From: a virus
Virus record (IMG/VR): IMGVR_UViG_3300047388_000343
Coordinates: 1 to 20,858 of that record
Length of the DNA stretch: 20,858 nucleotides
Reading direction: 5' to 3' (one strand)
The stretch's first letter is position 1; every line of letters starts with the position of its first letter. The notes under the pieces were generated by a model, which was given only the letters and a program-made list of their open reading frames with translations, did no database searches and was not told the origin of the DNA. Shown here in pieces: positions 7,471-20,658 of this stretch. The translations under genes and the position numbers were made by a program.

Positions 7471-9447
7471 GTGCCGGCGAAGCTACTCATCCAGCTACTA
7501 GGCGAGTCCACGTCCGCCGTATCGGCGATCAAGAAAACTTCCGCGGCCAGCGACGAAGCTACTGGCGCGGCGAAGAAGACGGGGAGCGCGTGGTCCGGCG
7601 TAGGGAAGATCGCCGCCGCCGCCGGCGGGGCCTTCGCCGCCGCCAAGATCGTCCAGTTTGCGAAAGACTCCGTGTCCGCCGCTTCGGACCTCAACGAGTC
7701 ATGGTCGAAGGTGGGGGTAGTTTTCGGGAAGTCCGCCGGCGAGGTTTACAAGTGGTCCGCCACGTCCGCCACCGCCATGGGCCTATCCCGCCAACAAGCC
7801 CTCGAGGCGGCTTCCACCTACGGGAACCTGGCCGTAGCGTTAGGACTCCCCCCCGCCCAAGCCGCCAAGATGAGCACGAGCCTCGTGGGCCTGGCCGGCG
7901 ACCTGGCCTCGTTTAATAACGTCCCCGTGGGGGACGCCCTCGACGCCCTCCGCTCCGGCCTTACCGGCGAGGTGGAACCGCTCCGCCGTTTCGGCGTGAG
8001 CCTGTCCCAAGCCCAAGTCCAAGCCGAAGCCCTCCGGATGGGACTCACGAAAGCGCCGGTGGATATGGCCAAGGTGACCTTGGCCACCCAACGCCTAGCC
8101 CTGGCCCAAGGCAAACAAGCCGAATCCGTGAAGAAGTACGGGGCCTCGAGCAAACAAGCCCAAGCCGCCAACGTCGCCGTGGCCTCGTCCCAACAGAATC
8201 TCAGTAAAGCGATGGCCGGCGGGAAGGTGGAGCTCACCGCGGCGCAGAAAGCCCAAGCCACCTACTCCCTGATAATGAAGCAAACGAGCGTGGCGCAAGG
8301 GGACTTCGCCCGGACGAGCTCCGGCCTGGCCAACCAACAGCGGATCGCGTCCGCCCAATGGAAAGATATGCAATCCACGGTAGGGACGGCCCTACTTCCG
8401 ATCGTCCGGACCTTCGCCAGTATGCTCACGTCCACGCTTATTCCGGCCCTGACCGTCGTGGCCAAGGTGTTTAAGAACAATTCGACCGTGATTCAGATCC
8501 TCGCCGCGGCGATCGGCGCCATCATTATCGTCACCAAGATATGGACGATCACGACCGCGATCCTCAATAGCACCCTTCTCGCTAACCCCATATTCCTGGT
8601 GGTCGTGGCCGTGGTCGCCCTGGTGGCCGTGATCGTGCTCGTGGCCACCAAAACCCGCTTTTTTCAAGCGGTTTGGGCGGCTGTATCCCGGGCCATGGTC
8701 GCGGCGTGGAACGCCACCACTCGAGCCATATGGGTCGCGTGGAACGCCACCGTAGGGGCGATCGTGGGCGCGTGGAACGCGACCTATCGCGTGATCTCGT
8801 CCGTCTTTCGTGCCATCTTGTCCGCCGCTATGTCCGTGTGGTCTTGGATCAAGGGGAATTGGCCGCTCCTGCTGGGGGTGATTACCGGGCCCTTCGGCCT
8901 GGCCGTCGTGCTCATCATTCGCTACTGGTCGCAAGTGTCCGGTTTCTTCGCCGGCGTGGTGGGCGCCATCGCCGGCGTGTTCTCCCGCGTGTATGGCTAC
9001 ATCACCCAACCGTTTATCTCCGCCTTTAATCTGATCCGCTCCGTAGCCGAAGCCGCCCTAGGGTGGATCCAAGCCCGCGTTCAGACCGTTATGGCCGCCG
9101 TAGCGTGGGGGATCAACGCGGCCAAGTCCGTCTACAACGCCTTCGCCCGGACGTGGAACGCCATTCAGGTCACCATGCCGGCGATCGACACCCACATTCC
9201 CGGCGTGGGCAAGGTGGGCGGCTTCACCCTAGGCCTGCCGGACCTCCCCATCCTGGCCCGCGGCGGACTGTTGACCCGCTCCGGTCTCGTGTTCGCCCAC
9301 GCCGGCGAAGTGATCTCGCCGGCGCCGGCCCGGGCCCGGGGCGCCGGCCCCTTGGTCCGGATCGAACACGCCCATTTCAGCGAGAAGATCGACGTGGCCA
9401 CCTTCGGCCGGCGTCTGGCGTGGGAGCTCGAGACCGCGGGGGTGTGA
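7471..9447 (+). CDS. Tape measure protein
   Basis: The longest gene (658 residues), placed right after the chaperones. It sets tail length, fills the tube, and is ejected at infection. The N-terminal part is helical and rich in Ala, Ser, Lys and Gln (SAIKKTSAASDEATGAAKKTG; QKAQATYSLIMKQTSVAQGDFARTSSGLANQQRIASAQW is typical of the family). Strong hydrophobic segments lie at about residues 339-398 and 464-485, with a weaker one near 492-505. Trp at 413, 424 and 435 marks three 11-residue repeats around WNAT, the spacing seen in many tape measures. By the usual rule of about 0.15 nm per residue the tail would be near 100 nm. The start is GTG 7471. Confidence 0.92.
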   Translation: MPAKLLIQLLGESTSAVSAIKKTSAASDEATGAAKKTGSAWSGVGKIAAAAGGAFAAAKIVQFAKDSVSAASDLNESWSKVGVVFGKSAGEVYKWSATSATAMGLSRQQALEAASTYGNLAVALGLPPAQAAKMSTSLVGLAGDLASFNNVPVGDALDALRSGLTGEVEPLRRFGVSLSQAQVQAEALRMGLTKAPVDMAKVTLATQRLALAQGKQAESVKKYGASSKQAQAANVAVASSQQNLSKAMAGGKVELTAAQKAQATYSLIMKQTSVAQGDFARTSSGLANQQRIASAQWKDMQSTVGTALLPIVRTFASMLTSTLIPALTVVAKVFKNNSTVIQILAAAIGAIIIVTKIWTITTAILNSTLLANPIFLVVVAVVALVAVIVLVATKTRFFQAVWAAVSRAMVAAWNATTRAIWVAWNATVGAIVGAWNATYRVISSVFRAILSAAMSVWSWIKGNWPLLLGVITGPFGLAVVLIIRYWSQVSGFFAGVVGAIAGVFSRVYGYITQPFISAFNLIRSVAEAALGWIQARVQTVMAAVAWGINAAKSVYNAFARTWNAIQVTMPAIDTHIPGVGKVGGFTLGLPDLPILARGGLLTRSGLVFAHAGEVISPAPARARGAGPLVRIEHAHFSEKIDVATFGRRLAWELETAGV

Positions 9448-14136: not shown

Positions 14137-14140
14137 TCGC

Positions 14141-14180
14141 GTGACGCGCTCGTGACGCGCGTGACGCGCTCATGACGCGC
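14141..14180 (+). repeat. Tandem 20-bp repeat, two copies
   Basis: GTGACGCGCTCGTGACGCGC (14141-14160) is followed directly by the same 20 bases with one change (A at 14172). Each copy itself contains two GTGACGCGC half-units. A third, exact copy of the first unit lies at 14385-14404, inside the 3' end of the integrase gene. Read on the minus strand this block encodes RARHERVT, matching the end of the integrase, so it may be a duplicated gene end or integrase-binding DNA. Confidence 0.8.
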
Positions 14181-14356: not shown

Positions 14357-15532
14357 CTAAATCGCGCCGCCGGCGCCGGCGTCCGTGACGCGCTCGTGAC
14401 GCGCTCGCCAGACTGACGCCACCGCGGCCCGGGCCCGGGCCGGCGTGGTCTCGAGGGGGTGCGCGTACATATCGGCGGTGATCGAAGGCCTCGAGTGGCC
14501 CAAGAGCTCCGCCACTTCGGCGACGGACAAGCCGGCCGCCAGCGCCGTGGACGCGAAGAAGTGGCGGAGATCGTGGAGCCGCACGCCGGCGAAGCCGGCC
14601 CGGGCCGCCTGGCGCTTCCACGTGTCGTCCGCGGCCCGATGCGAGATCGGGGCCCCGTCTGGCCGGTGGAAGATCAACCGGCCCTCGCCGGCCGGCCGGC
14701 CCTCCTGGTCGACCACCGCCACCGCTGGCCCTAGGGGGTGCTCCGCCAGGTGCGCGGCCAAGAGCTCCACCGTGTCTTCGTCCAGCGGGACCGTCCGCCT
14801 AGAGCTCGCCGTCTTCGGATCGAGGATCACCGCGCCGCGGACCATCTGGCGATCCACGTGGAGCTCTTTACGGAGGAAGTCCACTTGCTCCGCGCACAGA
14901 CCCAAGAGCTCCGCCGGCCGGAGCCCGGTCCGGGCCCCGAAGGGCCCTAGGAACGCCCACGCGGCGGGGAGCCGGGCCGCGATGGCCAAGATCCCATCTC
15001 GAGGCGGGGGGACGATCCGGCGCCGCTCTACCTTCTTCGGGAGCGTGAGTCCGTCGCACGGATTGTCACCGCGTAGCTTGTCCGCCACCGCCGCCGCGAA
15101 CAGTCCCCGGACCCACGTCCAGTCCGTCCGCAGCGTGCCGGCGCCAAGCGTGCCACCGCCGCGGCCGGCCGCTTCGCTGCGAGCCTTCATCCAGCCCCGG
15201 ATATCGGATTGGCGGACCTTCACCAAGGGCCGCGGGCCGATCAAGTCCACGAGGGGGGCGAGCGCCGCCGCCACGCGCTTGGCGGAGCCGGTGCGGTGGA
15301 TCTGAACCGCCGTCCACTCCGCCACGTACTCCGCCACCGTGACCCGCGAACCGCGCGGATCGAGCTCCGTACCCGTGATCTTGTCCGCTTCGATCTTCAC
15401 CGCGAATTCGTCCGCCGCCTTCTTGTGACCCTTCGGGAAGGTCTTGGACAACGGCCGGCCGCCGCTCCGGTAGCGGACGCGGTAGCCGCGCACCTTCCCC
15501 ACTTCGTCATAAAGAGCCTTTACGCTGGCCAT
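14357..15532 (-). CDS. int: Tyrosine integrase
   Basis: Catalyses site-specific integration and, with an excisionase, excision. The 391-residue protein has an N-terminal arm-binding-like part (YRVRYRSGGRPLSKTFPKGHKKAADEFA), a SAM-like core-binding domain (about 60-155, VTVAEYVAEWTAVQIHRTGSAKRVA) and a catalytic domain with the full active-site set: R205 (TGLRPAE), K240 (LDPKTASSRRTVPL), H320 and R323 (HDLRHFFAS), H346 (LLGHSRPS) and Y356 (DMYAHP). It therefore looks active. The start ATG is preceded on the minus strand by GGAAGGGA. It is the only leftward gene. Its last codons lie in a repeat also found 200 bases beyond the gene. Confidence 0.95.
   Translation of the reverse strand: MASVKALYDEVGKVRGYRVRYRSGGRPLSKTFPKGHKKAADEFAVKIEADKITGTELDPRGSRVTVAEYVAEWTAVQIHRTGSAKRVAAALAPLVDLIGPRPLVKVRQSDIRGWMKARSEAAGRGGGTLGAGTLRTDWTWVRGLFAAAVADKLRGDNPCDGLTLPKKVERRRIVPPPRDGILAIAARLPAAWAFLGPFGARTGLRPAELLGLCAEQVDFLRKELHVDRQMVRGAVILDPKTASSRRTVPLDEDTVELLAAHLAEHPLGPAVAVVDQEGRPAGEGRLIFHRPDGAPISHRAADDTWKRQAARAGFAGVRLHDLRHFFASTALAAGLSVAEVAELLGHSRPSITADMYAHPLETTPARARAAVASVWRARHERVTDAGAGGAI
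14385..14404 (+). repeat. Third copy of the 20-bp repeat, inside the integrase end
   Basis: Identical to 14141-14160 and in the same orientation. On the minus strand it encodes RHERVTD near the integrase C-terminus. The distance between first and third copies is 244 bases. Confidence 0.8.
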
Positions 15533-15897: not shown

Positions 15898-15929
15898 GTC
15901 CGTCTATCCAGACGGCTCGCTAAGGGCCT

Positions 15930-16016
15930 TGTGACGCCCTGTGACGCCCTGTGATCCACAGTTACGGCCGGGGCGCTGACCTGCAATTTCCACCGGAAAT
16001 TCACAGCCTGTGACCC
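15930..16016 (+). promoter_or_regulatory. Operator-like cluster: 10-bp repeats and two dyads
   Basis: GTGACGCCCT is repeated at 15931-15940 and 15941-15950, followed in phase by GTGATCCACA (15951-15960), so three GTGA words lie one helical turn apart. The third forms the dyad CTGTG-ATC-CACAG (15949-15961). Further on is a perfect inverted repeat AATTTCC-ACC-GGAAATT (15985-16001), A/T-rich for this DNA, and then CTGTGACCCC. The block lies just upstream of the rightward promoter, so it is a good candidate for binding by the RHH-like or another regulator. A second replication origin is a less likely reading. Confidence 0.6.
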
Positions 16017-16129: not shown

Positions 16130-16348
16130 GTGACCGTTTCTCGTTTACGCAAATTGCCGAGCCCAGAAGCCCAAGAGCTCGAGCCCTTCAAGGTGGTTTG
16201 TCGCCGGCTAGGGATCCACCCCAATACCGGCTACAAGTTGCGCCGCGAAGACCGCTTCCCCTTCGAGGTGATCGAGGTGGGCGACCGCTTCTACTGCCGT
16301 ACGGGGGACGTGGACGCGTTGCTCCGCGACCGGGCCCGCGTCGGATGA
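16130..16348 (+). CDS. Excisionase-like / AlpA-MerR type HTH protein
   Basis: A 72-residue protein whose second half, FKVVCRRLGIHPNTGYKLRR then FPFEVIEVGDRFYCRTGDVDALL, has the helix-turn-helix-wing pattern of excisionase and AlpA-like DNA-binding proteins (a helix, a short turn with a P.TGYKLRR recognition helix, then a strand with G.R.YCR...V). Such proteins bend attP DNA to direct excision or regulate early genes. It is the first gene of the rightward early operon, with GGGGAAGGA as ribosome site and a GTG start. The ATGA overlap with the next gene suggests coupling. Excisionase versus transcription regulator cannot be decided here. Confidence 0.7.
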   Translation: MTVSRLRKLPSPEAQELEPFKVVCRRLGIHPNTGYKLRREDRFPFEVIEVGDRFYCRTGDVDALLRDRARVG

Positions 16349-18130: not shown

Positions 18131-18634
18131 GTGTCGTGGGAGCTCGTCTTGTGGGCGCGAGACGCGCCGGTGGACCCCACCGCCCGCCACGTGCTAATGG
18201 TGATCGCCACCCACGCCAACCGCTACGGCCGGGCCTGGCCCTCGAGCGACACCATCGCCCACGAGACCGGACGCCATATCCGCACCGTGATTAAGGCGGT
18301 GGATCGGATCGAAGAAGCCGGCGTGATTGACGTGATCCACAGACGGGGCCGATCATGCGAATTCGTGTTTCCACAAGATCCACACCCCTGGCGTAGCGCC
18401 CCTAACCCCTGGCATCCGGCCCTAAACCCCTGGCGTAGCGCCACACATAAGAACTTAGAAGAACTACAGAAGAACGCGCCGGACGCCGGCCGCTTCACTA
18501 CGTGGCGGCCCGCCGGCGAAACCCAAGACGCCGGCCCGGTGGATATGCGGGCCCTACTCGCCGGCATGAAAGCCCAACTAGCGGCCCGCTCGAGCAACCC
18601 GGAAGGCATGGCCGGAGATGACCGACACCCCTAA
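18131..18634 (+). CDS. Winged-helix protein, candidate replication initiator
   Basis: A 167-residue protein whose first 80 residues match a winged helix of the phage replication-initiator type: DPTARHVLMVIATHANRYGRAWPSSDTIAHETGRHIRTVIKAVDRIEEAGVIDVIHRRGRSCEFVF. The phrase on whole-cell-like growth (VLMVIATHAN..G.AWPS..TIA..TG...RTV..A...LE..G.I) is the usual HTH_36 pattern. Residues about 85-105 are a 7-residue repeat (PWRSAPN, PWHPALN, PWRSATH) encoded by three DNA iterons. The remainder is low in features. Proteins of this kind bind the origin and recruit host replication enzymes. No helicase or primase gene is present nearby. Confidence 0.75.
   Translation: MSWELVLWARDAPVDPTARHVLMVIATHANRYGRAWPSSDTIAHETGRHIRTVIKAVDRIEEAGVIDVIHRRGRSCEFVFPQDPHPWRSAPNPWHPALNPWRSATHKNLEELQKNAPDAGRFTTWRPAGETQDAGPVDMRALLAGMKAQLAARSSNPEGMAGDDRHP
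18384..18475 (+). other. Candidate replication origin: three 21-bp iterons and an A-rich stretch
   Basis: ACCCCTGGC begins at 18384, 18405 and 18426, exactly 21 bases (two helical turns) apart. Copies one and three continue as an inverted repeat GGCG-TAG-CGCC; copy two is degenerate. Immediately after is an A-rich stretch (18445-18475, 21 of 31 bases A or T in otherwise GC-rich DNA) with AAGAAC at 18449, 18459 and 18470, about one turn apart. Iterons inside an initiator gene followed by an easily opened stretch is the lambda ori plan. Confidence 0.7.
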
Positions 18635-20109: not shown

Positions 20110-20417
20110 CCGCTATGGAGCCGCCCGAAGGTTCGGAGCCGGAAGGGCCCGGTATGGGTAAGCCGTGGGTACCGCGGCCGGGTGTCACCTTCCTAGCCTT
20201 CGGGGCCTACGTCCGCTCACTTGTAGCCCTCAAGCCGCCGCCACCCCGCGGCCTAGTTGGCATGGACGTCAAGGGGAAGTGGAACCACGGAGCGGAAGAC
20301 ACCCTGTCCATGATCGCTTCACCGGACACCATCCGCGAATGGGCGGACGCCATGCTCGAAGCGGCCGACGCGGCCGAACGTGACGAAGCACAAGTGAAGC
20401 GGGAGTCCGGTGCCTAG
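20106..20417 (+). CDS. Early-region protein, unknown
   Basis: A 103-residue protein starting at GTG 20106 in a GTGA overlap (ATG 20115 is an alternative). After a Pro/Glu/Gly-rich start it reads PGVTFLAFGAYVRSLVALKPPPPRGLVGMDVKGKWNHGAEDTLSMIASPDTIREWADAMLEAADAAERDEAQVK. The second half is a charged helix. Nothing identifies a family. Its last eight bases are shared with the HNH gene (GTGCCTAG). Confidence 0.65.
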   Translation: MTAMEPPEGSEPEGPGMGKPWVPRPGVTFLAFGAYVRSLVALKPPPPRGLVGMDVKGKWNHGAEDTLSMIASPDTIREWADAMLEAADAAERDEAQVKRESGA

Positions 20418-20658
20418 CAATCCCCGATGGTCTCGAGCGTGGGCGAAGCGCCGGCGGATCGTGCTCGAGCGGGATGGGTACCGATGCGCCCTCGAGTATC
20501 CGGGGTGCGAGGGGGTGGCGACCCACGTGGACCACGTGGTCCCCCGCAAGTACGGCGGGGGTGACGAGCTCACCAATCTCCGGGCCGCCTGCCGCCGGTG
20601 CAACCTACGGCGGGGGGATGGCACCGCTCCGATAGGGGAGCCGGCGTCGGCGTGGTAG
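20410..20658 (+). CDS. HNH endonuclease
   Basis: An 82-residue protein with a complete beta-beta-alpha metal HNH core: CALEYPGC (C26, C33) and CRRC (C61, C64) as structural zinc ligands, VDH (D41, H42) as the active-site entry, TNLRAACRRCN (N56, N65) for the central and last positions. Small free-standing HNH enzymes next to the terminase genes assist cleavage of packaged DNA in HK97-like phages. Here the gene lies near the right edge and the terminase starts at the left edge, which fits if the genome is circular or was opened between them. The GTG start overlaps the previous stop. Confidence 0.88.
   Translation: MPSNPRWSRAWAKRRRIVLERDGYRCALEYPGCEGVATHVDHVVPRKYGGGDELTNLRAACRRCNLRRGDGTAPIGEPASAW

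Follow-up and report, generated by a model that had tools for sequence, protein, structure and literature searches.

A putative replication origin inside a winged-helix phage initiator gene, and frame-independent DNA repeats in related genes

Phage replication origins are mostly unknown and are rarely marked in records. The window analyzed here, the full 20,858 bases of IMG/VR virus record IMGVR_UViG_3300047388_000343, contains a winged-helix gene with short phased repeats in its coding sequence. The question is whether these repeats are DNA sites for replication or the by-product of a repeated protein sequence. The combined evidence makes it very likely that positions 18384-18475 are a replication origin inside its own initiator gene, where the protein would bind the iterons and open the adjoining AT-rich repeats.

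The initiator gene and its repeats

The record begins inside a small-terminase-like gene (1-411) and ends just after an HNH gene (20410-20658), an arrangement that resembles a circularly permuted genome which is nearly complete; a search for direct repeats at its two ends found none. Over the whole record the cumulative GC skew curve tracks gene orientation, and no clear feature marks 18.4 kb. An integrase gene is located at 14357-15532 on the minus strand. At its 3' end and past it, copies of CGTGACGCGCT about 11 bp apart form two clusters (14140-14170 and 14384-14405). There are six matches to this motif against 0.9 expected, a number reached in 0 of 100 shuffles, and the clusters may be integrase arm-type sites flanking attP. 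Three TTGTGA/CTGTGA repeats spaced 11 bp apart (cTTGTGACGCCCTGTGACGCCCTGTGATCC, 15929-15957) lie in the gap before a small HTH_17 gene at 16130 and are possible operator or excisionase sites.

The gene that carries the phased repeats has the following parts.

18131-18634, plus strand: winged-helix (HTH_36) O-like replication initiator gene by profile matches, 167 aa, GTG start
18131-18370, plus strand: predicted winged-helix DNA-binding domain, residues 1-80, from AlphaFold2 and viral-structure matches
18545-18592, plus strand: predicted C-terminal helix, residues 139-154 (pLDDT about 79 for residues 141-150)

The profiles and the predicted fold support the identification of the protein as an O-like winged-helix initiator, in agreement with a sequence-only reading that had called it a winged-helix protein of the initiator kind. 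Residues 16-64 match Pfam HTH_36 (PF13730, E=4.4e-11, above the gathering score). Over residues 1-72 the protein matches PHROG 1032, "replication initiation protein" (E=5.6e-14). PHROG 270 and 391, "replication initiation", match more weakly (down to E=1e-9). AlphaFold2 gives a confident winged helix for residues 1-80, with pLDDT about 88-98 (mostly 91-98) and the order HHHH-EE. Many helix-turn-helix phage proteins match among viral predicted structures (E down to 1e-7), one of them a putative replication protein O (B0FEC8). Among solved structures, the fold search returned weak, generic winged helices (E 0.002 or worse, none at or below 0.001), and the sequence search returned no meaningful match. 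Compared to other HTH_36 and PHROG 1032, 270, and 391 proteins, the window protein is unusually short. Model confidence is low at residues 90-103 (pLDDT about 44 for residues 91-100); this stretch is probably disordered and coincides roughly with the translation of iterons 2 and 3. No helicase or loader was recognized among the genes scanned around the initiator; it is followed by small unassigned genes, and the record may not be complete. The C-terminal helix of the model is a candidate contact for a helicase or loader. Single-protein searches in IMG/VR and GTDB genomes yielded no homologue above 50% identity for this gene, which leaves no close relative in which to trace this particular origin.

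The repeats begin 3' of the DNA-binding domain and lead directly into an AT-rich element.

18384-18404, plus strand: iteron 1, ACCCCTGGCGTAGCGCCCCTA, with the inverted repeat GGCG-TAG-CGCC (18390-18400)
18405-18425, plus strand: iteron 2, ACCCCTGGCATCCGGCCCTAA, second half degenerate
18426-18446, plus strand: iteron 3, ACCCCTGGCGTAGCGCCACAC, with the inverted repeat GGCG-TAG-CGCC (18432-18442)
18445-18475, plus strand: putative AT-rich DNA unwinding element of low GC, with AAGAAC three times

Both the coordinates and the inverted repeats in copies 1 and 3 reproduce what had been claimed from the letters. The motif ACCCCTGGC starts at 18384, 18405, and 18426, a spacing of exactly 21 bp, and scanning both strands of the record gave no further copy. 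Equally spaced exact 9-mer triples with a period of 9-60 occur twice in the window, and the iterons are one of the two. The other, in the tape-measure gene (8704-8780), is an in-frame repeat of 33 bp (GCGTGGAACGC) and resembles an ordinary protein repeat of 11 residues. Among codon-shuffled versions of the initiator gene, 0.4% contain an equally spaced 9-mer triple, and the codon-shuffle P for the repeats of this gene is about 0.003-0.004.

The A-rich stretch with three AAGAAC copies was also found as described. The copies are at 18449, 18459, and 18470, with spacings of 10 and 11 bp, and positions 18445-18474 are the joint lowest-GC 30-mer of the record (30% GC compared to 68% overall). On both strands of the window this is the only chain of at least three GAAC. 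An AAGAAC triple appeared in 0 of 20,000 codon shuffles of the initiator gene and a GAAC triple in 1.0%. Upstream of the iterons are two sites that resemble DnaA boxes.

18333-18341, plus strand: DnaA-box-like TGATCCACA, one mismatch to TTWTNCACA, at most suggestive
18367-18375, plus strand: DnaA-box-like GTTTCCACA, 8 bp upstream of iteron 1, also with one mismatch to TTWTNCACA, at most suggestive

The record has five one-mismatch boxes, including these two, and no perfect TTWTNCACA box is present in the window. Perfect boxes are found in 7 of 66 winged-helix origin segments versus 1 of 257 control segments.

A spacing of 21 bp means that the iterons are a 7-residue protein repeat as well. They are translated as (N)PWRSAP/NPWHPAL/NPWRSA, the PW repeat to which the sequence-only reading had pointed. 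Selection could thus act on the protein, for example on a PW-containing linker that binds a helicase or loader, and the DNA repeat would then be a by-product of coding. Consistent with this, the three window copies, one of them degenerate, all lie in one reading frame. When the protein is held fixed and its codons are replaced by synonyms, the observed lag-21 DNA identity is reached in 3% of trials, and so the window taken alone is weak evidence on whether the repeat belongs to the DNA or to the protein. The 21-bp spacing also means that reading-frame independence cannot be judged inside the window. Two observations from the window argue against protein-level selection: the linker is predicted to be disordered, and the AAGAAC triplet spans two frames (2, 0, 2).

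Iterons and GAAC repeats in related genes

Repeats after the winged helix are widespread among the relatives of this gene, and they behave as DNA. A family set of 66 non-redundant (<60% identity) winged-helix initiator genes was chosen without regard to repeats. Direct repeats after the winged helix were called at codon-shuffle P<=0.01, with other ORFs of the same loci as controls. They are present right after the winged helix in 52 of the 66 genes, which were found by profile and possibly include a few non-initiators, compared to 1 of 72 control ORFs (Fisher 1e-23). The codon-shuffle null alone does not separate protein repeats, and for this reason the reading frame matters. The repeat lags in the 52 genes cluster at 17 and 21-25 bp, plus their double, and 27 of the 52 lags are not multiples of three. 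Frame counts made on 9-mers tolerated one mismatch. In-frame lags (25 of 52) are somewhat over-represented, consistent with some coding constraint. ACCCC or its complement is present in 22 of the 52 repeat units, against about 6 expected from shuffled units.

Intragenic iterons are common in the HTH_36 O-like family, but each phage lineage has an iteron sequence of its own. Two syntenic relatives, identified through a neighboring gene, carry unrelated iterons at the same spot: CGCGGCAACTGSTGCCGGT spaced at 21 and 22 bp (L003), and AAACCGTCGCA spaced at 32, 21, and 22 bp (L005). Proteobacterial-type relatives have ACGGGGTGCA at 22 bp. Streptomyces prophage relatives have GTCACGCAC repeats with mixed spacings that are read as VTH and RHA in different frames. 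The sequence-only reading had named a PW repeat kept without DNA conservation as the result that would count against it. The relatives present the opposite picture, as they keep DNA repeats that encode unrelated peptides and are often out of frame. In L106 and G003 (Pigmentiphaga), two adjacent O-like winged-helix genes stand in tandem at three places in one genome (C2:475525-476281, C2:802649-803402, and C1:1871572-1872361). In L106 the second tandem gene has 22-bp iterons, and the first is without obvious repeats.

The iteron of the window itself is found in other winged-helix genes. A blind DNA search of IMG/VR for ACCCCTGGC pairs separated by 8-16 bp returned 43 loci. At 10 of them the pair is covered by an ORF with a winged helix, compared to 0 of 27 for the reversed pattern (Fisher P 0.005); about 5 of the 43 look like near-copies of each other, and the result is unchanged when they are dropped. 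In nine of the 10 the pair is on the C-terminal side of the winged helix. The same DNA iteron, ACCCCTGGCGT..(A)CGCC, is read in different frames in different genes. The window uses frame 1. In an unrelated phage (L034), frame 0 holds ACCCCTGGCGTAGACGCC, nearly identical to the window's ACCCCTGGCGTAGCGCC, and the ACCCCTGGCGT element is read in frame 2 as well; the L024 copies, of the form ACCCCTGGCACCTGTGCCA, likewise fall in frames 0 and 2. Taken together, distantly related genes read this one DNA element in all three frames, which points to a DNA site and is otherwise hard to explain. Frame breaks and unrelated peptides among the relatives, together with the reading of one iteron in several frames, leave protein-level selection an improbable account of the repeats. 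Inverted ACCCCTGGC pairs, with GCCAGGGGT on the coding strand, are present in winged-helix genes at L028, L033, L042, L047, and L064, showing that the orientation of the iteron relative to the gene is not fixed.

The AT-rich zone past the iterons is also a feature of the family, and the usual order is winged helix, iterons, and then AT-rich GAAC repeats. GC content drops by 10-13 points at +10 to +50 nt past the iterons. GAACC is present in this downstream zone in 33 of the 52 genes versus about 4 expected. Chains of at least three GAAC at intervals of 8-14 bp, mostly 10-13 bp, are found in 18 of 73 genes; codon shuffling predicts 0.4, and 2 of 406 control ORFs have such a chain. In a ranking of all 256 tetramers, AACC and GAAC take the first two places and the complement GTTC scores 0; GAACC was noticed and measured on one gene set, a concern that the control ORFs and this ranking reduce and do not remove. 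More than one reading frame is used by 14 of the 18 chains. Read from the sequences, the EPSxEPS, LNHQ, and RTVNRTVN repeats of the proteins are one DNA motif, GAACC[A/G]TCA, in three frames.

The repeats could also be an operator through which the winged-helix protein autoregulates its transcription, with replication starting elsewhere. Partly palindromic iterons fit an operator too, and the best solved-structure matches are winged-helix regulators, all of them weak (E 0.002 or worse). The sites are 250 bp inside the gene, however, and not at a promoter. The protein profiles are those of replication initiators, and across the family the iterons are followed, at comparable distances, by a GAAC repeat prone to melting. 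There is accordingly little probability that the locus serves as an operator in place of an origin. Short tandem repeats are abundant in high-GC phage genes, but a chance or low-complexity repeat is very improbable here given the codon-shuffle result, the restriction of the motif to one site, and its recurrence across the family.

Comparison with known origins

The plan of the locus is that of the lambda origin. In lambda, the iterons are inverted repeats located midway in gene O; the O protein binds them, and unwinding takes place at the adjoining AT-rich tract (PMC7466680). The lambda origin, with four iterons, is likewise intragenic, lies just after the N-terminal DNA-binding part, and has an AT-rich stretch immediately 3'; its iterons are also imperfect inverted repeats, spaced at 20-24 bp (PMC7466680). 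In the sequence of gene O the iterons are 20, 24, and 23 bp apart and an A-rich tract follows, which bears out the earlier claim that lambda has the same plan. The sequences themselves differ. The lambda iteron core TCCCTC..GAGGGA has no measurable relation to the window iterons, and the window shares neither the iteron nor the A-tract sequence that would mark the lambda O family proper. GAAC repeats were considered as a lambda feature and rejected, as the lambda A-rich tract is without a GAAC chain. Lambda O is also larger and is paired with the P loader, whereas the window protein has 167 aa and no loader is recognized in the record.

Other systems share parts of this plan. By published description, SPP1 oriL resembles the window in having direct repeats and an AT-rich unwinding element inside an initiator gene, gene 38 for the replisome organizer G38P (PMC6316719), and differs from it in that SPP1 also has oriR as a second origin and encodes both a loader and a helicase. 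An intragenic iteron origin has been predicted in Francisella phage KIRK (PMC7924643). Since the intragenic iteron plan is known from lambda and SPP1, the proposed origin of the window adds a member to a known plan. Unwinding-element repeats of varying sequence are known in lambda and plasmid origins (PMC10797057). In iteron plasmids, winged-helix Rep proteins bind one strand of the unwinding element sequence-specifically (PMC4081077). This single-strand binding may, by analogy, serve as a model for the GAAC repeats. RK2 oriV/TrfA-type origins are like the window in placing iterons beside short tandem repeats (13-mers) in an AT-rich element. Iteron plasmids differ from it in that their iterons lie outside the rep gene and the repeat sequences are not the same.

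No published GAACC element of the unwinding zone was found in the open-licence literature, and a prior description is possible. What appears to be new is the shared GAACC repeat, along with how widely the rule holds among HTH_36 initiators and its independence of reading frame.

Proposed mechanism and implications

A mechanism can be proposed from lambda O and the iteron-plasmid Rep proteins, in which the steps after sequence recognition are drawn by analogy. The winged-helix protein, probably as dimers, would bind the partly palindromic iterons at three sites phased by 21 bp. This phasing is two helical turns, which would place the sites on one face of the DNA. The bound initiator could then wrap the DNA into an O-some-like complex that strains and opens the adjoining AT-rich GAAC-repeat element. 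Capture of a single strand at the GAAC repeats would be followed by entry of the helicase. The C-terminal part of the protein, connected through the disordered linker that the iterons encode, may bring in the host replicative helicase either directly or through a loader; the C-terminal helix or a small unassigned gene may serve in this role. Initiator binding, unwinding, helicase recruitment, and origin activity are what we infer from the arrangement of these parts.

We lean toward the broader view that a two-part intragenic origin code is common to winged-helix phage initiators from both Actinomycetota and Pseudomonadota. The first part would be variable iterons matched to each initiator, and the second a conserved tandem GAACC[A/G]TCA, repeated about once per helical turn and indifferent to reading frame. 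GAACC[A/G]TCA would be bound as a single strand by a conserved factor, for which the initiator and host proteins such as DnaA or the helicase are candidates. The conserved GAACC repeat raises the question of which protein reads it. A frame-independent signature of iterons and GAAC(C) after a winged helix would also explain odd linkers (EPSxEPS, NHQ, RTVNRTVN, and PW repeats) as by-products of origin DNA, and it would allow origins to be called in many phages and prophages. If the two-part code is true, origins can be read from phage genomes by sequence alone.
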